Below, one piece after another: positions 29,239-56,276 of a stretch of DNA of 64,000 nucleotides. How positions within the stretch are numbered: position 1 is the first letter of the stretch; the number at the start of each line of letters is the position of its first letter. Position numbers and translations under genes: made by a program. The notes beneath the pieces are model-generated. The model saw only the letters and a program-made list of their open reading frames with translations, had not been told where the DNA came from and searched no databases. The stretch is from Tritrichomonas musculus (lineage: Eukaryota; Parabasalia; Tritrichomonadida; Tritrichomonadidae), in NCBI GenBank assembly GCA_039105265.1, contig JAPFFF010000027.1, positions 1,860,001 through 1,924,000 of the forward strand. The letters are read 5' to 3'.

Positions 29239-29511
29239 ATGAATACACTAAAAAATTACCAGAAAACTCCATTTACTTATGTACAAGTGAAGATACTTGT
29301 GCGAATGGTAGATATCTACGAATTTACATATTTCAAAGATTCGAAAGATATTATGAATGAAATTCCATTTGAAAAAATGGATAACATTTATGACAGTGAG
29401 AATTTAAGCTACCCTGAAGTCATCAAAGCTGATGGAGAATTAATTTGGTATACTCTTTTGATGTGTAAAAGTTATATGAACTTTTCAAAACTTTTTGAAT
29501 ATATCATTTGA
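29239..29511 (+). CDS. Small hypothetical protein
   Basis: A 90-residue ORF starting at ATG 29239 (TCATG context) with ordinary residue content and no low-complexity bias: MNTLKNYQKTPFTYVQVK at the start and LIWYTLLMCKSYMNFSKLF near the end. It lies 64 bp before the next gene on the same strand. It could be a short gene, the intact tail of the decayed sequence upstream, or chance. No family is recognised. Confidence 0.3.
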   Translation: MNTLKNYQKTPFTYVQVKILVRMVDIYEFTYFKDSKDIMNEIPFEKMDNIYDSENLSYPEVIKADGELIWYTLLMCKSYMNFSKLFEYII

Positions 29512-41978: not shown

Positions 41979-43757
41979 GACTAAAAGCAATATAAATTTT
42001 CACATCATTTTTCAAAGTTATAATCTCAATTTACCCGGAAAATTTGAAAACATTTAGAAAAATAAAATTCCTATTTTTGTAAAACCCCCAACATTTTTAA
42101 ATATGTGGAAAAATGGAAATGCAAGTGAACATTTATATTAAAACTGAGGTTATATATATGATTCATACAATCGTTATATACGATTTCTTGATTAATTTTG
42201 TCGAAATTAAGATTAAAAAAATAAAAATTAAGTAAATCCATTTTATTTTCAATAAATATTTTTAAATATGATATTAAACAAGGTTTAATAGATAAAATAG
42301 CAATATGTTAAAAGAATAAAATGAATATCATCAAATTATTAGTGTTTACTCAATAATTAGTGTATATTCTAATTTATTATTTTTATTTTTATTTTATAAT
42401 TCTATTTTAATGATTTTAATATAATATAATTTCGTATATATACCAATATTAATATTTTTTGGTTTATTTCAATAATACACGTTACTCATACCCGATGACT
42501 CAAATATTCTGAGCTGTTGTATCAAAAAACACGTTACCCATACCCGATTGCTCAAATATTTGAGAATAATACAGAGATTTATTTTATTTAAAAATAAAAT
42601 CATTTCTGGTTAACATATTTATGTTTAGCATATCTTAAATAATAAAATGGTTAATTATATTTTTGTTAACCTTTTAAATGAGGAAAAAGTTCATTAAAAA
42701 AAATTATAACCCATTATTTCATTAATTAAAACGAATAAAAATATTGATCACTTTAAAACATAAATCAATGAATAAGAAAATCATTTTATTAGAGAAATAT
42801 ATAGCATTATAATATCTATCATTTTTGAATCTGAGAAAAAGAAATAAAAATTAAGCCAAAAAATGAATACATATATTTAACTTATTTATGTTATCATTAT
42901 ACGCTATTGTAATATTATTTTGGCAAATATTTTGCTTTATTATTAAAATAATATTGCAAAAATGTAATTTAATAAGAACATCTTGAATAATAACCTTATG
43001 CGAATCATTTCCAACTAGTTTCTGATTATAGAGTTGAAGATAAGTAGCCCAAATTGGTTACTTTGCATCAAATATTTATGTATTTTTATAGAAACGAATA
43101 TTTTTTTAAGTCACATTTCATTAATAGCATGAAGTGAAGTATTGAAAACGAAATAAAATATACGTTTTTTTTGATAGTTCATTTATCTTTACTAATATTT
43201 TTTTGATATCTTTAAATATTCTAAAAAACAATTAATTATTTGAATATAAAATATAATTGTCATATAAATTCGTAATTTATTCATATATTGGGAAATTTTT
43301 AATATCAATTATTCAATTTCTATAATTTGCATATTTATTTTGGAATATTATTATAATATATAAGTTGAAGAATCATATTTATGAAGATAAATAAGTGAAT
43401 GTTGAATGAATGCAAAATTATTATTATTGATGATCATGAAATTCTGAATGTTGAAATTAGTCAAATATAAAAAATATCAGCATATAATCTTTATTAACTT
43501 TAATGAACTTTGGTCAGAGCATTTTTAAAATCTAATTTTGACATTATATAATCAGTATATTTGTTTTTTACCTTGAAAAAAAATAATAAATAATCTATCA
43601 AAAAGATTTATTGCTCTGTTTTTTATACTTATCCATAAAAAATAAACTTTCAAACAAATGCTATCTTTAAATATAATTAACTTTTTTAACAAGGGGAAAA
43701 ATTGTAAACGGTTTTGTTGGGGGTTTTATTTTTGTCGTAAAACTTGATTTGAGATAG
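41979..43757. other. AT-rich region between MITE and MULE
   Basis: About 1.8 kb without an ORF of note or an RNA gene. The only structured piece is the duplicated motif at 42477-42564. The rest is long A/T-rich sequence. Confidence 0.45.
42477..42564 (+). repeat. Two direct copies of a ~37-bp motif, 52 bp apart
   Basis: Copies at 42477-42513 and 42529-42564 share ACACGTTAC(T/C)CATACCCGAT and a CTCAAATATT tail. The second ends in the palindrome CTCAAATATTTGAG. The GC-richer CATACCCGAT core stands out in AT-rich surroundings. Confidence 0.7.
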
Positions 43758-43766
43758 GAATTTCTA
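43758..43766 (+). repeat. Left target-site duplication of the MULE
   Basis: GAATTTCTA, identical to 56268-56276 on the other side of the element. Nine bp is the usual Mutator-type length. Confidence 0.9.
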
Positions 43767-43800
43767 GGCCAATCGCTTAAGCATACACCACTTTTTGAAT
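43767..43800 (+). repeat. MULE left terminal inverted repeat (34 bp)
   Basis: It begins GGCCAATCGCTTAAGC. The right copy reads GGGCAATCGCTTATGC on the minus strand. The remaining 18 bp are identical. Confidence 0.92.
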
Positions 43801-43823
43801 TGCTCACAATTCATTGAAATAAA

Positions 43824-43917
43824 GTCTTTAAACTTTTTCAAATAATGTCTTTAAACTTTTTGATAGCATTTGAAAGAAGGTCTATAAACTTTTTGTAAAA
43901 AGGTCTTTAAACTTTTT
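43824..43917 (+). repeat. Four subterminal repeats GTCT(T/A)TAAACTTTTT
   Basis: Copies lie at 43824-43838, 43847-43861, 43880-43894 (one mismatch) and 43903-43917, spaced 23, 33 and 23 bp. The AAACTTTTTCAA core recurs inverted at the right end (56218-56229, TTGAAAAAGTTT). Subterminal repeats of this kind are typical transposase-binding sites. Confidence 0.75.
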
Positions 43918-44020
43918 TTTCCAAAAATTAATTTATAAATTTTTCAACTTTTTGTGTGAGGTTAAAAAAACAATAGGCAAGGCCATAACCGTAAAATTTG
44001 CTCTATTTTATTTAAAATTA

Positions 44021-46738
44021 AAATTCACAATTCGCAATTACTTTTACAGAAAGAAACACAGTAGCAAGCTACAAGAAACACAATCAGTGCATCGAACACG
44101 AAAAAACCAACGAAACAGCGACCAACGCAGACCATTCACAATTCGCAATTACTTTTACAGAAAGAAACACAGTAGCAAGCTACAAGAAACACAATCAGTG
44201 CATCGAACACGAAAAAAACAACGAAACATTTATCAAAGAAACAGCGAACAACGCAGACCATTCACAATTCGCAATTACTTTTACTAGAAAGAAACACAGT
44301 GGCAAGCTACAAGAAACTCAATCAGTGCATCGAACACGAAAAAAACAACGAAACAGCGACCAACGCAGACCATTCACAATTCGCAATTACTTTTACAGAA
44401 AGAAACACAGTAGCAAGCTACAAGAAACACAATCAGTGCATCGAACACGAAAAAAACAACGAAACATTTATCAAAGAAACAGCGAACAACGCAGACCATT
44501 CACAATTCGCAATTACTTTTACTAGAAAGAAACACAGTGGCAAGCTACAAGAAACTCAATCAGTGCATCGAACACGAAAAAAACAACGAAACATTTAGCA
44601 AAGAAGCAGCTACAAGCACAGACCATTCACAATTCGCAATTACTTTTACAGAAAGAAACACAGTAGCAAGCTACAAGAAACACAATCAGTGCATCGAACA
44701 CGAAAAAACCAACGAAACAGCGACCAACGCAGACCATTCACAATTCGCAATTACTTTTACAGAAAGAAACACAGTGGCAAGCTACAAGAAACTCAATCAG
44801 TGCATCGAACACGAAAAAAACAACGAAACATTTATCAAAGAAACAGCGAACAACGCAGACCATTCACAATTCGCAATTACTTTTACTAGAAAGAAACACA
44901 GTGGCAAGCTACAAGAAACTCAATCAGTGCATCGAACACGAAAAAAACAACGAAACATTTAGCAAAGAAGCAGCTACAAGCACAGACCATTCACAATTCG
45001 CAATTACTTTTACAGAAAGAAACACAGTAGCAAGCTACAAGAAACACAATCAGTGCATCGAACACGAAAAAACCAACGAAACAGCGACCAACGCAGACCA
45101 TTCACAATTCGCAATTACTTTTACAGAAAGAAACACAGTAGCAAGCTACAAGAAACACAATCAGTGCATCGAACACGAAAAAAACAACGAAACATGTAGC
45201 AAAGAAGCAGCTGCAAACGCAGACCATTCACAATTCGCAATTACTTTTACTAGAAAGAAACACAGTGGCAAGCTACAAGAAACTCAATCAGTGCATCGAA
45301 CACGAAAAAAACAACGAAACATTTAGCAAAGAAGCAGCTACAAGCACAGACCATTCACAATTCGCAATTACTTTTACAGAAAGAAACACAGTAGCAAGCT
45401 ACAAGAAACACAATCAGTGCATCGAACACGAAAAAAACAACGAAACATTTATCAAAGAAACAGCGAACAACGCAGACCATTCACAATTCGCAATTACTTT
45501 TACTAGAAAGAAACACAGTGGCAAGCTACAAGAAACTCAATCAGTGCATCGAACACGAAAAAAACAACGAAACATTTAGCAAAGAAGCAGCTACAAACAC
45601 AGACCATTCACAATTCGCAATTACTTTTACTAGAAAGAAACACAGTAGCAAGCTACAAGAAACACAATCAGTGCATCGAACACGAAAAAAACAACGAAAC
45701 ATTTAGCAAAGAAGCAGCTACAAGCACAGACCATTCACAATTCGCAATTACTTTTACTAGAAAGAAACACAGTAGCAAGCTACAAGAAACACAATCAGTG
45801 CATCGAACACGAAAAAAACAACGAAACATTTAGCAAAGAAGCAGCTACAAGCACAGACCATTCACAATTCGCAATTACTTTTACAGAAAGAAACACAGTA
45901 GCAAGCTACAAGAAACACAATCAGTGCATCGAACACGAAAAAAACAACGAAACATGTAGCAAAGAAGCAGCTGCAAACGCAGACCATTCACAATTCGCAA
46001 TTACTTTTACAGAAAGAAACACAGTAGCAAGCTACAAGAAACTCAATCAGTGCATCGAACACGAAAAAACCAACGAAACAGCGACCAACGCAGACCATTC
46101 ACAATTCGCAATTACTTTTACAGAAAGAAACACAGTAGCAAGCTACAAGAAACACAATCAGTGCATCGAACACGAAAAAAACAACGAAACATTTATCAAA
46201 GAAACAGCGAACAACGCAGACCATTCACAATTCGCAATTACTTTTACTAGAAAGAAACACAGTAGCAAGCTACAAGAAACTCAATCAGTGCATCGAACAC
46301 GAAAAAAACAACGAAACATTTAGCAAAGAAGCAGCTACAAACACAGACCATTCACAATTCGCAATTACTTTTACAGAAAGAAACACAGTAGCAAGCTACA
46401 AGAAACACAATCAGTGCATCGAACACGAAAAAAACAACGAAACATGTAGCAAAGAAGCAGCTACAAACGCAGACCATTCACAATTCGCAATTACTTTTAC
46501 AGAAAGAAACACAGTAGCAAGCTACAAGAAACACAATCAGTGCATCGAACACGAAAAAAACAACGAAACATGTAGCAAAGAAACAGCTACAAACACAGAC
46601 CATTCACAATTCGCAATTACTTTTACTAGAAAGAAACACAGTAGCAAGCTACAAGAAACTCAATCAGTGCATCGAACACGAAAAAACCAACGAAACAGCG
46701 AACAACACAGACCATTCATAACCGCAATATCTTTTACA
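44021..46738 (+). repeat. Tandem array of 111/126-bp units (about 22 copies plus a partial) upstream of the transposase
   Basis: The anchor CATTCACAATTCGCAATTAC recurs at about 44023, 44133, 44259, 44371, 44497, 44624, 44735, 44861, 44988, 45099, 45225 and so on to 46600, with a degenerate last copy at 46713. Spacings are 111 or 126 bp, plus one when the unit carries an extra T (TTACTAGAAAG instead of TTACAGAAAG). The base lengths are 37 and 42 codons. One frame reads through the units without stops as a repeat beginning QFAITFTERNTVASYKK; the inserted T breaks it. The array ends about 30 bp before the transposase ATG. Confidence 0.92.
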
Positions 46739-46766
46739 AAGACGTTTAACATTTTTTATTTTTAAA

Positions 46767-49700
46767 ATGCAAGATTCAAATACAAAGTACCATGTCTCAA
46801 AAGAAGAGATTGAACTATTGGTTCCTGCACTTAAGAACTATTTTAGTTACCCTCAAAGAACTATTGAACGATCAAATATTGTACACGAAGTTGTAGCAAA
46901 GCTTTCAGTTATTAGCCAACATTGGAATCCTGGAACTGTAAGAAAATGGTTCATTAACAATATGCAACAATATGTTAAAAATTATTTATATGCATCTACT
47001 CCACAACCCATCATAGAAGAAGAAAAATTTCCAGGTTGCCCTGAATGGATGAATTATTATTTGCCTCGGCAATGGTATTATACGCTTCCTAAGAATATCC
47101 AACGCTATTATGATCGAATAGAAGAAAAAACATTGGAAATGAGAAGAAATCAAGCACAATTTCAAAATGTTTTACAGCCACAAGCACAAGCACAAGCACA
47201 ATTTCCGAATACTCAATCAGTGCAATTACATCAACAACCACAAGCACAAGCACAAGTCCATGGAGTTCAAACAGAGCAAATACAGCAACAATCACAAACA
47301 CAAGCACAAGTCCACAGAGTTCAGGCCCTTCAGTTGCAACCACAAGCACAATTTCAGAATACTCAATCAGTGCAATTACATCAACAACCACAAGCACAAG
47401 CACAAGTCCACGGAGTTCAGGCAATGCAAATACAGCAACAATCACAATTTCAGAATGCTCAATCAGTGCAATTACATCAACAACCACAAGCACAAGCACA
47501 AGTCCATGGAGCTCAGGCAATGCAAATACAGCAACAATCACAAACACAAGCACAAGTCCACAGAGTTCAGGCCCTTCAGTTGCAACCACAAGCACAATTT
47601 CAGAATACTCAATCAGTGCAATTACATCAACAACCACAAGCACAAGCACAAGTCCACGGAGTTCAAACAGTGCAATTACATCAACAACCACAAGCACAAG
47701 CACAAGTCCACGGAGTTCAAACAGTGCAATTACATCAACAACCACAACCACAAGCACAAGTCCATGGAGCTCAGGCAATGCAATTGCAGCAACAATCACA
47801 AACACAAGCACAATTTCACAATACTCAATCAGTGCAATTACATCAACAACCACAAGCACAAGCACAAGTCCACGGAGTTCAGGCAATGCAATTGCAACCA
47901 CAAGCACAATTTCAGAATGCTCAATCAGTGCAATTACATCAACAACCACAAGCACAAGTTTACGGAGTTCAGGCAATGCAATTGCAGCAACAAGCACAAT
48001 TTCCGAATACTCAATCAGTGCAATTACAGCCACAAGCACAAGCACAAGCACAATTTCCGAATACTCAATCAGTGCAATTACATCAACAACCACAAGCACA
48101 AGCACAAGTCCATGGAGTTCAAACAGAGCAAATACAGCAACAATCACAAACACAAGCACAAGTCCACGGAGTTCAGGCCCTTCAGTTGCAACCACAAGCA
48201 CAATTTCAGAATACTCAATCAGTGCAATTACATCAACAACTACTAGCACAAGCACAAGTCCATGGAGCTCAGGCAATGCAATTGCAACCACAAGCACAAT
48301 TTCAGAATGCTCAATCAGTGCAATTACATCAACAACTACTAGCACAAGCACAAGTCCATGGAGTTCAAACAGAGCAAATACAGCAACAATCACAAACACA
48401 AGCACAAGTCCACGGAGTTCAGGCCCTTCAGTTGCAACCACAAGCACAATTTCAGAATACTCAATCAGTGCAATTACAGCCACAAGCACAAGCACAATTT
48501 CAGAATACTCAATCAGTGCAATTACATCAGCAATCACAACCACAAGTCCAAGGAGCTCAGGCAATGCAATTGCAGCAACAATCACAAACACAAACACAAT
48601 TTCAGAATGCTCAATCAGTGCAATTACATCAACAACTACAAGCACAAGTCCACGGAGTTCAAACAGTGCAAATACAGCAACAACCACAAACACAATTTCA
48701 GAATACTCAACCAATGCAAATACAGCAACAACCACAAGCACAATTTCAGAATACTCAACCAATGCAATTGCAGCAACAACCACAAGCACAATTTCAGAAT
48801 ACTCAACCAATGCAATTACAGCAACAACCACAAGCACTATTTCAGAATACTCAACCAATGCAATTACAGCAACAACCACAAGCACTATTTCAGAATATTC
48901 AACCAGTGCAATTGAAGCCACAAGCACAAATTTACAGATCTCAACCAATGCAATTAATTCCTCAAGAACAATTGCAATTCCAAAGTACTCAACCATCACA
49001 ATTTCAACCACAGGTTTTAGTGCCTCAATGCCAGCCACCACAGGTATTAACGACTCCATATCATTCAATGATTAATATAGCAACTCCTTATCAATTTCAA
49101 CCAGAACGCCAAAATCAATATCATCATACAGTACAGGATGATATACAAAGTTATAATCAAATGATGCAGCAAACAAAATGGCAAAGTAAAATGAATAACT
49201 CCAATTATTTCAATTTTTCACAAAAGCGTAATACACAAGTTGTATCCTCTAATGATATTAATTTAAATGATGAGCCAACTATTTACGAAACCAATAACAT
49301 AATAGTACAGTTGCCGGAACTCTCAAAAGAAATACGAATTCAAGATCCACCTCAAAATGAACTTAATGAAAATACCAGAGAAACTCCGCCTGAGTTAGTA
49401 AATTGTTTCCTGGAACTCAACAATAATAATGTAGATTCATTAGATTTGTTACTATCATATGTCCATGATATTTCAATTGCACATGGATGTCCTTTTGTTG
49501 CAAAACAAACAGGGCCTACGCGTTCCACTCAGATATTTGCTTGTAGTTTTCATGAAACTCAATTTCAATGCAAAGCTTGTATCAAGTTATATTATGATGA
49601 TCTTTCTCATAAAGTTTATATAGAAGAAATGGAGCATCATCATACTCATTGTATTGGACAAGTAAAGAAAGGAAAAACACGAAACTCATTACCATATATA

Positions 49701-51272
49701 CAAAAGTTAAGAATTCAAAATGCAACAAATGACTTTCAAACCGCACAAGCAATAAAAGAAAAAGAAGGCTTAGTTTGTTCGAAAGATATATTATTTGGAG
49801 CAAGAAGAAAGGCACTCAAGAAATTGCGTGATAATGAAATGAAGCACTTATTGCAAGTTATGTTAGATTACAATAATTGGACCAATATTGTAATTATTGA
49901 TGAGAATAATAAGTTCCGCCACTGTTACTGTATACACAATCCTGTTCTTTATTCCACATACTCAAATGACGTTTGCATTATAGATGATACCAGTTGTACG
50001 AACTATTATGGAAAGCCATTATTATCATTAGTAGTAGAAGACGAAAATAAAAATAATCAGTTGTTATCTTTTGCGATTATGGATAACAGATGCAAACCAT
50101 CATTCATTGCTTTTTTTTCACATCTAAAGAAATTCATTGGCGATATAAGAGTTTTTGTTACAGATAGAAACCAAACACAAATAGAAGCAATTGAAGAAAT
50201 CTGGCCACACGCTCATATAATGTATTGTCTCAGACACATAGGTAAAAACATCGGAACGAATGTCTCAGCCGCAATGAAAGAAAGATTCGATAAAATGGTA
50301 CATAAACAAATAACAGAAAAAGAACTACTTGATGATTTCGAAAAATACCTAAAAGATCAAGATCCCAAAAGCCAAGGTTATTCTACAATATCCAATCTTT
50401 TATCATGTAAACACCGTTGGTTGCCAAGCATTACAGCTACATACTGTCACCGTGAAAATTCTACAAGCAATCGTGTTGAAGGATTCTTTGGTAAATTAAA
50501 AAATTTCAATGAGCACCGAATTAAAACGCTAGGAAGATTAGTAAGATCAATTTATATATCCGCAGCAAATGAATACACTAATTCCATAAATACAGATGAC
50601 TTTCATATTAAAGATCATATATTGTCGCCTGAACACTCAGTGAAAGTAGGTTCTTATGCGTTAGAAAGAATACAAAAAGAGAATGACATCTTAGAAAACC
50701 TTCGCCTTCATAAAGAATACGGACCAACCTGTTGTGATACTCATGTTATTTTAGGACTTCCATGTCGCCACCTCTTGTTCAAAAGAATGAAAGAAAATAA
50801 TGATCCTTTATTAACAATTAATGATATTCATCCAAGATGGTTGCATAGTTATCAATATGATATAAGTAAATCTATTCGAAATAGGGTCTCAATCAAAAAA
50901 ATTAAGCTACTAGAAGATGGTAATTGGACTTATTCGGCATGTATTGATAGATTCGAAAGATATTTTTCCGTAGCCAAGAGATCAAAAGCAATTCAAAAAA
51001 TACTTAAACAATGCCTTCTATTGTTACAAAATGAAGAACAAAAATCAGGAGAAAGTTCATTTATAATACCACCAGATAGTTTACTTATTTCAGGCAGATC
51101 CACAACATTCCCTCGTAATAATGTCGATAAGCCAGGAGCACCTAAATTAAAAAAGCCGTATAAAAAAGGAGAAAATGAAAAGAATAATGCTAACAGATGC
51201 ACAGAAGGTAAATGCAGGAAGCCAAGAAAATCTAGTGCTAAGACAATTAAGAAAAGAATCTCGAATGATTGA
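46767..51272 (+). CDS. MULE transposase with HTH, giant Gln-rich repeat, zinc finger, DDE core and SWIM finger
   Basis: A 1501-residue protein. Residues about 8-75 look like a homeodomain-type HTH (WNPGTVRKWFINNMQQY as recognition helix). Residues about 132-740 are a Gln-rich tandem repeat with units such as NTQSVQLHQQPQAQAQVHG. Residues about 905-975 carry a FLYWCH/WRKY-GCM1-like Cys/His cluster (FACSF...QCKACIKL...HHHTHC). The DDE RNase-H core follows: first Asp in IIDDTSCTNYYG (about 1071), second in FVTDRNQTQIEAI (about 1131), the C-x2-H in YCLRHIGKNI, and the Glu in NRVEGFFGKLK (about 1238). A SWIM finger (CCDTHVILGLPCRHLL) sits at about 1322 and a basic tail ends the protein. It catalyses cut-and-paste transposition. 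There is no stop or frameshift, so it is probably functional. Confidence 0.92.
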   Translation: MQDSNTKYHVSKEEIELLVPALKNYFSYPQRTIERSNIVHEVVAKLSVISQHWNPGTVRKWFINNMQQYVKNYLYASTPQPIIEEEKFPGCPEWMNYYLPRQWYYTLPKNIQRYYDRIEEKTLEMRRNQAQFQNVLQPQAQAQAQFPNTQSVQLHQQPQAQAQVHGVQTEQIQQQSQTQAQVHRVQALQLQPQAQFQNTQSVQLHQQPQAQAQVHGVQAMQIQQQSQFQNAQSVQLHQQPQAQAQVHGAQAMQIQQQSQTQAQVHRVQALQLQPQAQFQNTQSVQLHQQPQAQAQVHGVQTVQLHQQPQAQAQVHGVQTVQLHQQPQPQAQVHGAQAMQLQQQSQTQAQFHNTQSVQLHQQPQAQAQVHGVQAMQLQPQAQFQNAQSVQLHQQPQAQVYGVQAMQLQQQAQFPNTQSVQLQPQAQAQAQFPNTQSVQLHQQPQAQAQVHGVQTEQIQQQSQTQAQVHGVQALQLQPQAQFQNTQSVQLHQQLLAQAQVHGAQAMQLQPQAQFQNAQSVQLHQQLLAQAQVHGVQTEQIQQQSQTQAQVHGVQALQLQPQAQFQNTQSVQLQPQAQAQFQNTQSVQLHQQSQPQVQGAQAMQLQQQSQTQTQFQNAQSVQLHQQLQAQVHGVQTVQIQQQPQTQFQNTQPMQIQQQPQAQFQNTQPMQLQQQPQAQFQNTQPMQLQQQPQALFQNTQPMQLQQQPQALFQNIQPVQLKPQAQIYRSQPMQLIPQEQLQFQSTQPSQFQPQVLVPQCQPPQVLTTPYHSMINIATPYQFQPERQNQYHHTVQDDIQSYNQMMQQTKWQSKMNNSNYFNFSQKRNTQVVSSNDINLNDEPTIYETNNIIVQLPELSKEIRIQDPPQNELNENTRETPPELVNCFLELNNNNVDSLDLLLSYVHDISIAHGCPFVAKQTGPTRSTQIFACSFHETQFQCKACIKLYYDDLSHKVYIEEMEHHHTHCIGQVKKGKTRNSLPYIQKLRIQNATNDFQTAQAIKEKEGLVCSKDILFGARRKALKKLRDNEMKHLLQVMLDYNNWTNIVIIDENNKFRHCYCIHNPVLYSTYSNDVCIIDDTSCTNYYGKPLLSLVVEDENKNNQLLSFAIMDNRCKPSFIAFFSHLKKFIGDIRVFVTDRNQTQIEAIEEIWPHAHIMYCLRHIGKNIGTNVSAAMKERFDKMVHKQITEKELLDDFEKYLKDQDPKSQGYSTISNLLSCKHRWLPSITATYCHRENSTSNRVEGFFGKLKNFNEHRIKTLGRLVRSIYISAANEYTNSINTDDFHIKDHILSPEHSVKVGSYALERIQKENDILENLRLHKEYGPTCCDTHVILGLPCRHLLFKRMKENNDPLLTINDIHPRWLHSYQYDISKSIRNRVSIKKIKLLEDGNWTYSACIDRFERYFSVAKRSKAIQKILKQCLLLLQNEEQKSGESSFIIPPDSLLISGRSTTFPRNNVDKPGAPKLKKPYKKGENEKNNANRCTEGKCRKPRKSSAKTIKKRISND
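47160..48940 (+). repeat. CAA-rich coding repeat (Gln-rich domain)
   Basis: About 1.8 kb of imperfect tandem units built from CAACCACAAGCACAAG and CAATCAGTGCAATTACATCA blocks. Nucleotide similarity between units is high enough to leave long open frames on the opposite strand, and the coding frame never breaks. Confidence 0.88.
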
Positions 51273-51876
51273 ATATGCAAATAGTAATGGCTTGAGAACT
51301 GACCAGATAAATACATTAAATTGTTCAATGTTATGTAAAAATTTGTTTTATTTGCCTTATTATTATATAATAATTATATTATAATTATATTAATTATCGT
51401 TTGAAAACTGAGATTATAATTCAAAGTCTACATTTCATTAGCCTTGCTAAATAGTTAAATAGAAATTTTAAAGATATTTCTGATGTTTAATCTAGGTTAT
51501 GATTTTCAATTGTACCTTTTGATTAATAAAATGTTAATTATTTACATTATTTTTACCTTTTTTGATTTACTTTTAATTATTATTATTATGATGATGATCA
51601 TTTTAAGGAATACATAATAAATCGGAATATCGTTTTATTTTTTTTTTTTTTTTCTGACTCACTTTTTCAATAAAAGCATATTTTTATTTTTTATGTAAAA
51701 AACACTATTTTCAATATTTATTTAGACAATATTATTCTACTCATGAAAATATGAAATACAAATCAATTTCATATTTCGCTAAAATTTCTTACTCTTCGAG
51801 TCCATCTAAAAAAAATTGAATGGACTTAACCTGAACAATGACCTATGACGATCATGATTTTAACCATATAAAAATT

Positions 51877-51916
<40 letters not shown>

Positions 51917-52164
51917 TTCTTATAGAATAATAAGTAGGCTATTATTTAACAAATTGTAGTTCAATTTGAATGAAACTCAAATACTTTAACATTTTTATCT
52001 TCATTTATGGTTTCTGTTTTTACTTTTCAATAAGAATAAATTGTATCCATAGTCTCAGTAATATAATAATATGGAATCAAAAGAGCAGTAACACGATATA
52101 ACTTTTTGAAATATAAACCATTAAAAAAGAAATCTTCTGGATTCAAGACATTATATTTTGAAAA
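51273..52164. other. MULE internal noncoding region between transposase and 63-bp array
   Basis: About 0.9 kb, AT-rich, with a T-run near 51636-51652 and an A-run of about 29 bp at 51883-51911. No ORF or RNA gene is supported. Confidence 0.5.
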
Positions 52165-54432
52165 ATGGAATTAGAGAATCTTAACTGCAAAAATCATTAT
52201 AAGATAAACTATTCTGTATTATGAATAATGAAACTAGAGAATCTTAACTGCAAAAATCATTATAAGATAAACTATTCTGTATTATGAATAATGGAACTAG
52301 AGAATCTTAACTGCAAAAATCATTATAAGATAAACTATTCTGTATTATGAATAATGAAACTAGAGAATCTTAACTGCAAAAATCATTATAAGATAAACTA
52401 TTCTGTATTATGAATAATGGAACTAGAGAATCTTAACTGCAAAAATCATTATAAGATAAACTATTCTGTATTATGAATAATGAAACTAGAGAATCTTAAC
52501 TGCAAAAATCATTATAAGATAAACTATTCTGTATTATGAATAATGAAACTAGAGAATCTTAACTGCAAAAATCATTATAAGATAAACTATTCTGTATTAT
52601 GAATAATGGAACTAGAGAATCTTAACTGCAAAAATCATTATAAGATAAACTATTCTGTATTATGAATAATGGAACTAGAGAATCTTAACTGCAAAAATCA
52701 TTATAAGATAAACTATTCTGTATTATGAATAATGAAACTAGAGAATCTTAACTGCAAAAATCATTATAAGATAAACTATTCTGTATTATGAATAATGAAA
52801 CTAGAGAATCTTAACTGCAAAAATCATTATAAGATAAACTATTCTGTATTATGAATAATGAAACTAGAGAATCTTAACTGCAAAAATCATTATAAGATAA
52901 ACTATTCTGTATTATGAATAATGAAACTAGAGAATCTTAACTGCAAAAATCATTATAAGATAAACTATTCTGTATTATGAATAATGAAACTAGAGAATCT
53001 TAACTGCAAAAATCATTATAAGATAAACTATTCTGTATTATGAATAATGAAACTAGAGAATCTTAACTGCAAAAATCATTATAAGATAAACTATTCTGTA
53101 TTATGAATAATGAAACTAGAGAATCTTAACTGCAAAAATCATTATAAGATAAACTATTCTGTATTATGAATAATGAAACTAGAGAATCTTAACTGCAAAA
53201 ATCATTATAAGATAAACTATTCTGTATTATGAATAATGGAACTAGAGAATCTTAACTGCAAAAATCATTATAAGATAAACTATTCTGTATTATGAATAAT
53301 GAAACTAGAGAATCTTAACTGCAAAAATCATTATAAGATAAACTATTCTGTATTATGAATAATGAAACTAGAGAATCTTAACTGCAAAAATCATTATAAG
53401 ATAAACTATTCTGTATTATGAATAATGAAACTAGAGAATCTTAACTGCAAAAATCATTATAAGATAAACTATTCTGTATTATGAATAATGGAACTAGAGA
53501 ATCTTAACTGCAAAAATCATTATAAGATAAACTATTCTGTATTATGAATAATGAAACTAGAGAATCTTAACTGCAAAAATCATTATAAGATAAACTATTC
53601 TGTATTATGAATAATGAAACTAGAGAATCTTAACTGCAAAAATCATTATAAGATAAACTATTCTGTATTATGAATAATGGAACTAGAGAATCTTAACTGC
53701 AAAAATCATTATAAGATAAACTATTCTGTATTATGAATAATGAAACTAGAGAATCTTAACTGCAAAAATCATTATAAGATAAACTATTCTGTATTATGAA
53801 TAATGGAACTAGAGAATCTTAACTGCAAAAATCATTATAAGATAAACTATTCTGTATTATGAATAATGAAACTAGAGAATCTTAACTGCAAAAATCATTA
53901 TAAGATAAACTATTCTGTATTATGAATAATGGAACTAGAGAATCTTAACTGCAAAAATCATTATAAGATAAACTATTCTGTATTATGAATAATGAAACTA
54001 GAGAATCTTAACTGCAAAAATCATTATAAGATAAACTATTCTGTATTATGAATAATGAAACTAGAGAATCTTAACTGCAAAAATCATTATAAGATAAACT
54101 ATTCTGTATTATGAATAATGGAACTAGAGAATCTTAACTGCAAAAATCATTATAAGATAAACTATTCTGTATTATGAATAATGGAACTAGAGAATCTTAA
54201 CTGCAAAAATCATTATAAGATAAACTATTCTGTATTATGAATAATGAAACTAGAGAATCTTAACTGCAAAAATCATTATAAGATAAACTATTCTGTATTA
54301 TGAATAATGGAACTAGAGAATCTTAACTGCAAAAATCATTATAAGATAAACTATTCTGTATTATGAATAATGAAACTAGAGAATCTTAACTGCAAAAATC
54401 ATTATAAGATAAACTATTCTGTATTTTGAATA
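52165..54432 (+). repeat. 63-bp tandem array, 36 nearly identical copies
   Basis: Exactly 36 x 63 bp = 2268 bp. Copies differ almost only at one A/G site; G occurs in copies 1, 3, 5, 8, 9, 18, 22, 25, 27, 29, 32, 33 and 35. Copy 1 also has TTA for CTA, and the last copy has TTT for TTA near its end. Each unit contains a complete ATG-to-TGA frame of 19 codons, M(K/E)LENLNCKNHYKINYSVL, and the A/G site switches Lys to Glu. All other frames are closed in every unit. Confidence 0.95.
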
Positions 54433-56233
54433 ATAATGTTTGATAAAACTAAATTCTGAAACCTTTGCGTTAAGAAAACCCATTTTTACTTATCATGATA
54501 AATTATTTGATTATAATATACATTTTATTATATTGTTCAGCTCAGTATGCTCTCATTTGCAACTCTATAACATTTAAAAGCAAAGTTTCCTCTATAATTA
54601 ACATATATAACATCACTGAAGGTTAATTATGATTTCTACGTTAAATATATTAATTCAAATCAATGTGTTTTATAATAAACACATCAAGGATTAATGCATT
54701 TTAAACTATAAGTTCATGTAATTCTTTTTTTTTTTTTTTTAGAAATAAAGATGCTACACTTAGGCGAGTCGAATACGAGTTTGCAGTGAAGCAGTTCTAG
54801 TAGTTAACAGTAGAGCATAGCAACAAAGTGCCAGCCATACTACTACTACTTCAAATGTCCCCCTGGACATAGCCTTCAAAAATTCTTAAAAAGCTCAAAA
54901 AACTTGGTCTCATTCAAAAATTTCATAATTTTTTTTTTTCAAACAAAATGCTATCAGTTTCGGTTTATTTACTGCCTATTTTTTTTTTTTTTTAAATTTA
55001 GGTTGGTTATTTACTTTGTATATTTTTAGTTAATATTTATATTGTGAATAAGCGAACAGTGCTGGAGCTCCAGTTTTTGAAATCATATATGGTCCTTTTT
55101 TTTTAAGAAAAAAAAAAAAAAAAACCATGACCTATAGGTCATGGTTTTAAATAAAAAAAAGAAAAAACTTAAAAACTTTAAATTTTTATTATATTTCATA
55201 AAAATATGATATAATGCATGATTATTAGACTGTTTTAAAGCATAATACTAAAAAAAAAAATCAATTTTTTGAAAATTTACAGACGAATGATTATTATTAT
55301 TATTATTTTTTTTTTTTTTTCAATATTTCTTATATATAATATTTTATATATACAATTCATGTAATAATTGATAACCAATCTATTGCTTTTAATTTTCTTT
55401 TTTCTTTTTTTTTCTTTTTTTTTTTTTTTTTTTATATATATATAATAAAAAAAGTGCCGTTGAACGTTTATTTTTATTTCTAATGTTTGACAGCACCGGA
55501 ATGAGCAATTCCAATAAACGATTACAATAAAAAAAAAGTCCGAGTTCTTAATAACATTGGTCCTTTTCATGGATTACCTATCTTATCGTAGATATATCAC
55601 AATCTTCAAAAAATGATAATCAGATAGCTATTTTTACTAATAGGCAACTTTTTGATTACTGCAGAATATCTCCATCGATACCTTGCATTTTTTTTTTTAT
55701 TCTAAGTGATATTTTCAACTCGTTGATCTTATCTTATCATTACTTATAACCATTATTTGTACTCGTTTTTATTATTTTACGCATTAATATTTAGATTTTC
55801 ATTACATTGTTCTTATATTGGCATTTCTTAGTACCATAGTTTTTACTTTTTCAGTGTATCATCACAAAAATAATCAAAAAAATCAATTTTCATCTCGTTT
55901 TTCTTATATTTGCTTTGTTTAATATCTTTATTTTAACTCTTTTTTATTATTTTACGCATTCTAGTTTATATTATACATAATTATTATTCATGTTATTTTT
56001 TATCTTTAAGATAGAATACTTATCTTTTTTATTTATTTATTTATTTTCTTTTTTCTTTCTTATTTTTTTTAAATAAACTATAAAACTCCCTATTTTATTA
56101 TTATAAATCTATTTTTTTTTTTGGATTTTTTTTAAACAAAAACTTGAAAAATTTACATTCAAAATCTGTACGTTTTTTCTACATTCAATTTTTTATCACA
56201 ATTTTTGAATCAACTCATTGAAAAAGTTTCCCC
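54433..56233. other. MULE right noncoding region
   Basis: About 1.8 kb dominated by T- and A-runs. A patch at about 54755-54875 has clearly higher GC, including a 6-bp stem hairpin ATGTCC-CCCT-GGACAT at 54855-54870. A perfect palindrome lies at 55121-55148. I see no gene; the minus frame at 55277-55570 is homopolymer-driven. Confidence 0.5.
55121..55148. repeat. Perfect 28-bp palindrome
   Basis: The sequence reads AAAACCATGACC-TATA-GGTCATGGTTTT and is fully self-complementary. It lies between an A-run and an A/T-rich stretch within the MULE. Confidence 0.9.
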
Positions 56234-56267
56234 ATTCAAAAAGTGGTGTATGCATAAGCGATTGCCC
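56234..56267 (-). repeat. MULE right terminal inverted repeat (34 bp)
   Basis: Reverse complement of the left repeat with two mismatches (positions 3 and 14 of the repeat). It is followed at 56268-56276 by the second copy of the target duplication GAATTTCTA. Confidence 0.92.
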
Positions 56268-56276
56268 GAATTTCTA

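Follow-up and report, generated by a model that had tools for sequence, protein, structure and literature searches.

The 64,000-nucleotide stretch of the Tritrichomonas musculus genome analysed here (contig JAPFFF010000027.1, positions 1,860,001 to 1,924,000 of the forward strand; hereafter the window) contains a Mutator-like element (MULE) of a lineage designated A, in which a non-coding tandem array lies between the left end and the transposase gene. In two related lineages, B and C, unrelated arrays are found between the left end and any transposase gene; the slot is kept while the array sequence is replaced. Judged by analogy with plant MULEs, the array may be a cis-acting platform by the transposase promoter through which a bound protein, either element-encoded or co-evolving, controls or protects expression, a reading to which we assign a probability of about 0.45. 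According to the available part of the assembly report, T. musculus EAF2021 is a mouse gut commensal whose genome was assembled from HiFi reads (mean 8.9 kb) with Oxford Nanopore (ONT) scaffolding to 193.49 Mb in 756 contigs, 42.67% of it repeat-masked by the authors (PMC11978803). The genome searched in the present study comprised 193,395,805 bases in 746 contigs, with the window on contig 27, and element copies are named after their contigs (C1, C3, C12 and so on).

Boundaries and organization of the element in the window

Base-level reading of the sequence confirmed exact ends for a MULE of 12,501 bp at window positions 43767-56267, whose 34-bp terminal inverted repeats (TIRs) pair at 32 of 34 positions (94%). 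A preliminary description of this DNA, which had given the same length, 34-bp TIRs with two mismatches and a perfect 9-bp duplication, thus proved right to the base. The arrays that it had placed before and behind the transposase, as well as a repeat inside the gene, were recovered with Tandem Repeats Finder (TRF), and the two non-coding arrays together make up ~40% of the element. The features are as follows, with the basis of each in brackets; TSD is the target site duplication, ORF an open reading frame and F6 a remote MULE family described below.

43758-43766, no strand: left TSD, GAATTTCTA (sequence reading, comparison with other copies)
43767-43800, plus strand: left TIR, 34 bp (TIR pairing, copies, genome search with the TIR core)
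43827-43953, plus strand: left subterminal region with five TTTAAACTTTTT-like motif copies, ≤2 mismatches (motif scan)
44023-46697, plus strand: array 1, 127-bp unit, non-coding (TRF and other copies)
46767-51272, plus strand: transposase gene, 1501 aa (ORF list, Pfam)
46794-46970, plus strand: N-terminal module, transposase residues 10-68 (one-against-one match to the F6 transposase)
47172-~48956, plus strand: in-gene repeat encoding a Gln-rich tract (TRF, copy comparison)
52154-54434, plus strand: array 2, 63-bp unit, 36 copies in the window (TRF, copy comparison)
56234-56267, minus strand: right TIR, 34 bp (TIR pairing, copies)
56268-56276, no strand: right TSD, GAATTTCTA (sequence reading, copies)

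For array 1, TRF gave a 127-bp unit repeated 21 times at 44108-46697; a first, less regular unit begins at ~44023, as judged by other copies, and the array stops ~70 bp upstream of the transposase start codon. Array 2 was resolved as 36.2 copies of its 63-bp unit with a 98% match. Arrays 1 and 2 show no relation either to each other or to the TIRs. The TTTAAACTTTTT-like motif lies at element positions 60, 83, 116, 139 and 175, with one reverse copy in the last 300 bp. Long TIRs of the foldback type, made of tandem repeats on both arms, were not found, the TIRs being 34 bp.

Several other readings of the arrays were tried and rejected. Array 1 was not accepted as a gene: each of its three plus-strand frames contains open stretches, the longest of 224 codons, but these frames are broken and the sequence is poor in T. 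Neither non-coding array unit folds better than its shuffles on either strand, and Rfam returned nothing at gathering cut-offs. A 14-mer, ACTCAATCAGTGCA, is common to array 1 and the in-gene repeat (47172-48956), with nine copies in each; as 54 of 2000 Markov sequences reached the same sharing, the link is weak and may be due to chance.

Unrelated arrays occupy the same slot in other lineages

B elements of 7,669, 6,935 and 9,536 bp were located at C4:4.80 Mb, C58:377 kb and C12:1.93 Mb, respectively. Their left 187 bp are ~98% identical to A, and their right 83 bp match A at 92% and 94% in two copies and at 94% in C12. The interior is unrelated to A and holds, from position 228, a 14-15-bp array of 4.5, 3.1 and 7.0 kb in C4, C58 and C12. 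A fourth copy, C6:317084-360081, measures 42,998 bp and has a perfect TSD, AAGGAATTG; all eight samples taken between its array borders consisted of the 14-bp array. If uninterrupted, this array would therefore be ~40 kb long, a figure that depends on the assembly. The fifth copy, on the 33.8-kb contig C175, begins at base 29,269; everything sampled from there to base 1 was array, so that the contig ends inside the element. Perfect TSDs flanked three of the four B copies tested, C12 having only a shifted 7-bp match, and a 684-bp element at C7 has B ends and a few 14-bp units with no perfect TSD. As no MULE domain was listed for B (the matches listed being a lower bound) and no long frame was found outside the array, B looks non-autonomous; its A-like ends suggest that it is moved by the A transposase. 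Over 1.45 kb at the right, four B copies diverge by 0.28-0.41%, and B is therefore taken to be somewhat older than most A copies.

In the C lineage the TIR core is related to that of A. The copy at C23:11469-20044 (8,576 bp, with the TSD AAATTTATT at both ends) consists, in this order, of the left TIR, a 5.9-kb array of a 37-bp unit starting at position 178, a 633-aa transposase frame and the right TIR, and its transposase is 37% identical to the A transposase over 589 aa. The C copy at C4:1.225-1.254 Mb has the TSD AAAAAAATT, and its array flanks ~20 kb that lack it. The reading of this 28-kb element as one giant array was abandoned, since three of five interior samples were without tandem repeat, and a nested insertion is likelier. 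Beside the right end of the C elements on C4 and C23, a 52-bp repeat with a TIR-like core occurs in two to three copies, as if the C-element end were starting to duplicate itself in tandem.

Between A, B and C, the non-coding arrays have no word longer than 10 bases in common. Likewise, none of the four non-coding arrays has a 9-mer in common with its own TIR (the A TIR being used for B), and the subterminal motif (≤2 mismatches) occurs in none of them.

The remote family F6 (C1:8.615 Mb) carries a 21-bp array (43 copies, 79% match) that ends ~90 bp before a 619-aa frame. In a search with part of this array, all 26 listed domains had it 1.1-1.6 kb upstream, a count drawn from 31 array places among the matches listed, five of which have no domain nearby. 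Some of these loci are on likely duplicate contigs (C22 and C172, with the same spacing), and the independent loci are therefore fewer than 26. No element ends were found for F6 in the 6.8 kb searched. Taken together, the data indicate that in A, C and F6 an element-linked array directly precedes the transposase gene, although this is not universal.

The Pfam MULE family PF10551 gave at least 142 matches in the genome at E ≤0.001, with 150 of 266 candidates scored, and for six other MULE groups the 1.5-2.6 kb upstream of the domain were read at one locus each. At C28:5500-7400 (F7), a 131-bp array lies beside MULE transposases; this family was excluded as a further case because the unit, with 1,035 first-look candidates, is a genome-wide repeat. 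The 131-bp unit also matches on C10 (12-66 kb), C93, C220, C241 and C403, in many cases near contig starts, and is perhaps subtelomeric. A 108-bp repeat (36 codons) at C6:1552600-1555200 (F9) is probably inside the frame, and the listed open frames of this group vary (1368, 1296 and 1052 aa) in a manner reminiscent of the in-gene repeat of the window. Of the other MULE families examined, three are without an upstream array and a fourth is ambiguous. As a background, arrays of at least 300 bp occurred three times in 72,495 bases outside elements, twice inside window ORFs and once over open frames in the left flank of C42.

Family A is a recently active MULE family

The TIR core was found at 53 genome places (≤3 mismatches) and at none with a reversed control pattern, and is therefore not a chance sequence; the left-end and right-end queries gave 26 and 20 genome matches, respectively. 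In all 11 assembled copies (the window copy and ten others, 9,955-17,174 bp long), the two 34-mers are exact and the 9-bp TSD is perfect. A twelfth copy, on C23, deviates at one position of the left TIR and is flanked on both sides by the perfect TSD CATTATTTG, which brings perfect 9-bp TSDs to 12 of the 12 A copies read at both ends. These TSDs are AT-rich and include 11 distinct sequences. The preliminary description had proposed to look for further loci that share the ends and the 9-bp duplications and vary in array copy number; such loci are present across family A. C310 was not counted as a copy, being identical to C23 over the 3,088 bases compared, and C17 has a left end, the 127-bp array and a MULE domain, with no right end among the matches listed. 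Duplicate stretches were recognized in C310/C23 and, by matching match spacings, in C389/C23 and C172/C22, and copy counts are therefore inflated.

When the empty sites of eight copies with 1.5-kb flanks on both sides were rejoined, no frame of at least 60 codons crossed the insertion point in seven; in C16, a 73-codon frame did so. For the window locus, the only one searched in this way, no empty site was found in the same assembly, only the two filled halves. The element is almost certainly a real and recently active MULE, and family A is probably autonomous.

Arrays change far faster than the remaining element

Eight copies (C27b, C58, C31, C29, C16, C3, C1 and the window copy) could be compared over all four segments, and their non-repeat parts show 0-2 pairwise substitutions per ~5.7 kb and 0-7 small gaps. 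C12 differs from the eight by 4-6 substitutions, C42 by 8-9, and C12 from C42 by 13; C57, in which the right-segment anchor is absent, showed over 3.9 kb no difference from the eight, one from C42 and three from C12. C12 carries ~900 bp extra between gene and array, and C42 ~330 bp extra at the right.

Across 11 copies the 63-bp array contains 12, 23, 26, 26, 35, 35, 36, 41, 44, 64 and 121 complete units. Its TRF copy numbers all end in.2, indicating change by whole units, and its right border deviates in C57 only. The 463 units fall into four variants, two of which (265 and 196 units) are one base apart, the others being singletons. In this array, C16 and the window copy differ at a single unit, and loss of 12 units from the window copy would give the array of C1. 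Between C31 and the window copy, array 1 differs by one base in 2.76 kb and the 63-bp array by nine units. The length differences of the in-gene repeat are multiples of three in all 11 copies, and a transposase frame of 1419-1501 aa is kept in ten, that of C42 ending after 496 aa; in the C23 copy the open frame at the MULE domain is only 693 aa long. Transposition has been recent, and the arrays change far faster than the rest of the element.

The transposase and its N-terminal module

The 1501-aa ORF of the window contains the MULE domain PF10551 at residues 1070-1161 (E 5.1e-14, 52.9 bits against a cut-off of 27.6). Residues D1073, D1133 and E1238 fall in alignment columns common to four transposases and are presumably the DDE (Asp-Asp-Glu) catalytic triad. 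A SWIM-like CC-x2-H-x6-C-x-H stretch is also present, and no SWIM family reached the Pfam cut-off. Protein P0002, from another source, equals the A transposase at residues 1-135 and 860-1501 and has a shorter Gln-rich part, and protein P0003, 49% identical, differs in its Gln-rich N-terminus. Opposite the Gln-rich repeat, a 656-aa frame is open on the minus strand (47089-49059); it probably mirrors the composition of the repeat.

Between residues 10-68 of the A transposase and the C-terminal 59 residues of that of F6, 21 of 59 positions are identical (36%), with an E-value of 1e-9 that is flattering, as it comes from a one-against-one comparison without composition correction. The module belongs to no Pfam family, and searches found no homologue besides P0002, and none for the A/F6 pair alignment. 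A profile of the two modules gave nine matches in the PDB, seven of them homeodomains at E 0.25-2.5, the best match (0.14) not being a homeodomain. On this profile, the 59-residue module is perhaps homeodomain-like.

Flanking sequence of the window copy

The left flank at 43670-43733 recurs at more than 30 other genome places (38 further rows among the 40 scored), most matches covering only its first 58-64 bases; the element therefore adjoins the edge of another repeat. PADLOC gave no match for a neighbouring host ORF.

Possible role and origin of the arrays

We favour a model in which the slot would matter more than the array sequence. A motif placed in it would be expanded by slippage, gap repair or unequal repair, perhaps coupled to excision, and the resulting array would be a cis platform beside the transposase promoter, read by an element-encoded or co-evolving protein, which would let each lineage control or protect its own expression. 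Lineages might swap motif and array quickly, and the system would operate like the VANC target repeats of the Arabidopsis VANDAL MULEs, reached independently. A more specific version is unlikely in our judgement: each MULE lineage would keep a promoter-side array as a private address, read by the DNA-binding module of its own transposase (the 59 residues in A and F6), array and reader changing together against silencing or cross-talk, and non-autonomous kin would retain no more than the ends, with arrays swollen to tens of kilobases, which would also make the system a nursery of new satellites.

A number of observations weigh against the platform model. B, without a listed MULE domain or a long non-array frame, nevertheless has the longest arrays, and no counterpart of the downstream 63-bp array was seen in B or C. 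A second, VANC-like gene was not seen in A, where no ORF of at least 100 aa (ATG starts) exists beyond the frames overlapping the transposase gene. As for a candidate reader, the homeodomain likeness of the N-terminal module is below significance, its single-sequence structure model (three helices, predicted local distance difference test score 47) is poor and decides nothing, and the C transposase is without the module. Furthermore, no array was seen in the 1.5-2.3 kb read upstream at one locus each of F1 (C1:10.38 Mb), F4 (C8:5.70 Mb) and the C20 group (the distance to the start codon being estimated and the C20 stretch containing another ORF), and arrays are therefore not needed for MULEs in general.

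The main rival, itself quite possible, regards the arrays as functionless by-products, repeats being expanded by copying or gap repair during excision or replication in non-coding parts that tolerate changes in length. The whole-unit steps, such as the 12-unit gap between C1 and the window copy, the huge length range without loss of mobility, the presence of the longest arrays in B, where no transposase was seen, and the lack of array folding beyond that of shuffles are all in line with such an origin, as is the downstream 63-bp array of A, which fits placement in any non-coding stretch. By-products should land anywhere non-coding, however, but A, C and F6 hold unrelated arrays just before the transposase gene. 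The arrays might instead multiply end sites and thereby raise transposition, as has been suggested for Galileo and foldback elements, for which the available part of one report offers a precedent (PMC4079207); the five subterminal motif copies at the left end mean that repeated sites exist, but the four non-coding arrays contain neither a TIR 9-mer (A TIR for B) nor the subterminal motif, and we regard this as very improbable.

Capture of ordinary genomic satellites, which MULEs would take up or insert into and then transport, is suggested by the 131-bp unit beside F7, which is a genome-wide repeat, and by the few places with 14-bp and 37-bp units outside recognized elements. Against such capture, which we hold to be improbable, the array borders are fixed within the element in nearly all copies (C57 differing at the right), and among the matches listed for the 63-bp and 127-bp units (231 and 321 in all) every one lies in A copies. 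The same counts make satellites spread by the transposon the weakest of the three functions guessed at in the preliminary description. It had also named an assembly join of separate loci as the outcome that would overturn it. The mean HiFi read length, 8.9 kb according to the available part of the assembly report (PMC11978803), is shorter than the element, reads of this length cannot span the longest B arrays, the lengths of which are therefore uncertain, the copies are near-identical, and duplicate contigs exist (C310 and C23). However, the TSDs match in 12 of 12 A copies, so that the halves are correctly paired, and each array of the window copy lies within 4.2 kb of host flank; an artefact of this kind is hardly to be credited.

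The closest parallel is with the VANDAL MULEs of Arabidopsis, which, in the available parts of the cited reports, carry non-coding tandem repeats near element genes that expand, contract and differ among relatives, as in A (PMC5735166, PMC10398659), and the targets of VANC are tandem repeats that vary between related elements (PMC5735166). Unlike VANDAL as covered there, A has no separate VANC-like gene that we could see, has TIRs and kilobase-long arrays and resides in a parabasalid. TvMULE1-4 of Trichomonas vaginalis are likewise trichomonad MULEs with short TIRs (20-38 bp), but they measure 2.1-3.0 kb, with frames of 459-629 aa and TSDs of 10-14 bp, and the available part of the paper has no mention of 'tandem repeat' (PMC2725143). 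Tetris, a foldback element of Drosophila virilis, resembles A as a DNA transposon with a variable number of internal tandem repeats; it can seed satellites and has TSDs of 8-10 bp. In the accessible text, Tetris has its repeats within long TIRs and yielded no transposase, whereas the arrays of A lie outside 34-bp TIRs and a transposase is present (PMC4079207). Similarly, Pack-MULEs and B both have MULE ends around a foreign interior, presumably moved in trans, but Pack-MULEs contain gene fragments and none exceeds 7 kb in the set cited in the portion available (PMC6431247), whereas the interior of B is satellite and reaches up to 43 kb in the assembly. No report of trichomonad MULEs with such arrays was found in the literature searched, which missed most subscription papers. 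The initial view held a MULE built on three repeat systems to be unusual; the oddity extends beyond this element, as same-ended relatives hold other arrays in the same slot.

Near-identical ends combined with unrelated satellites constitute a natural experiment on the origin of satellites and their use by transposons, and arrays of 12-121 units in copies otherwise a few bases apart date the growth of the arrays to the period of recent transposition. Should the arrays be by-products, they show how a DNA transposon can grow to tens of kilobases; should they be platforms, they would be an independent, non-plant counterpart of the anti-silencing repeats of VANDAL elements.

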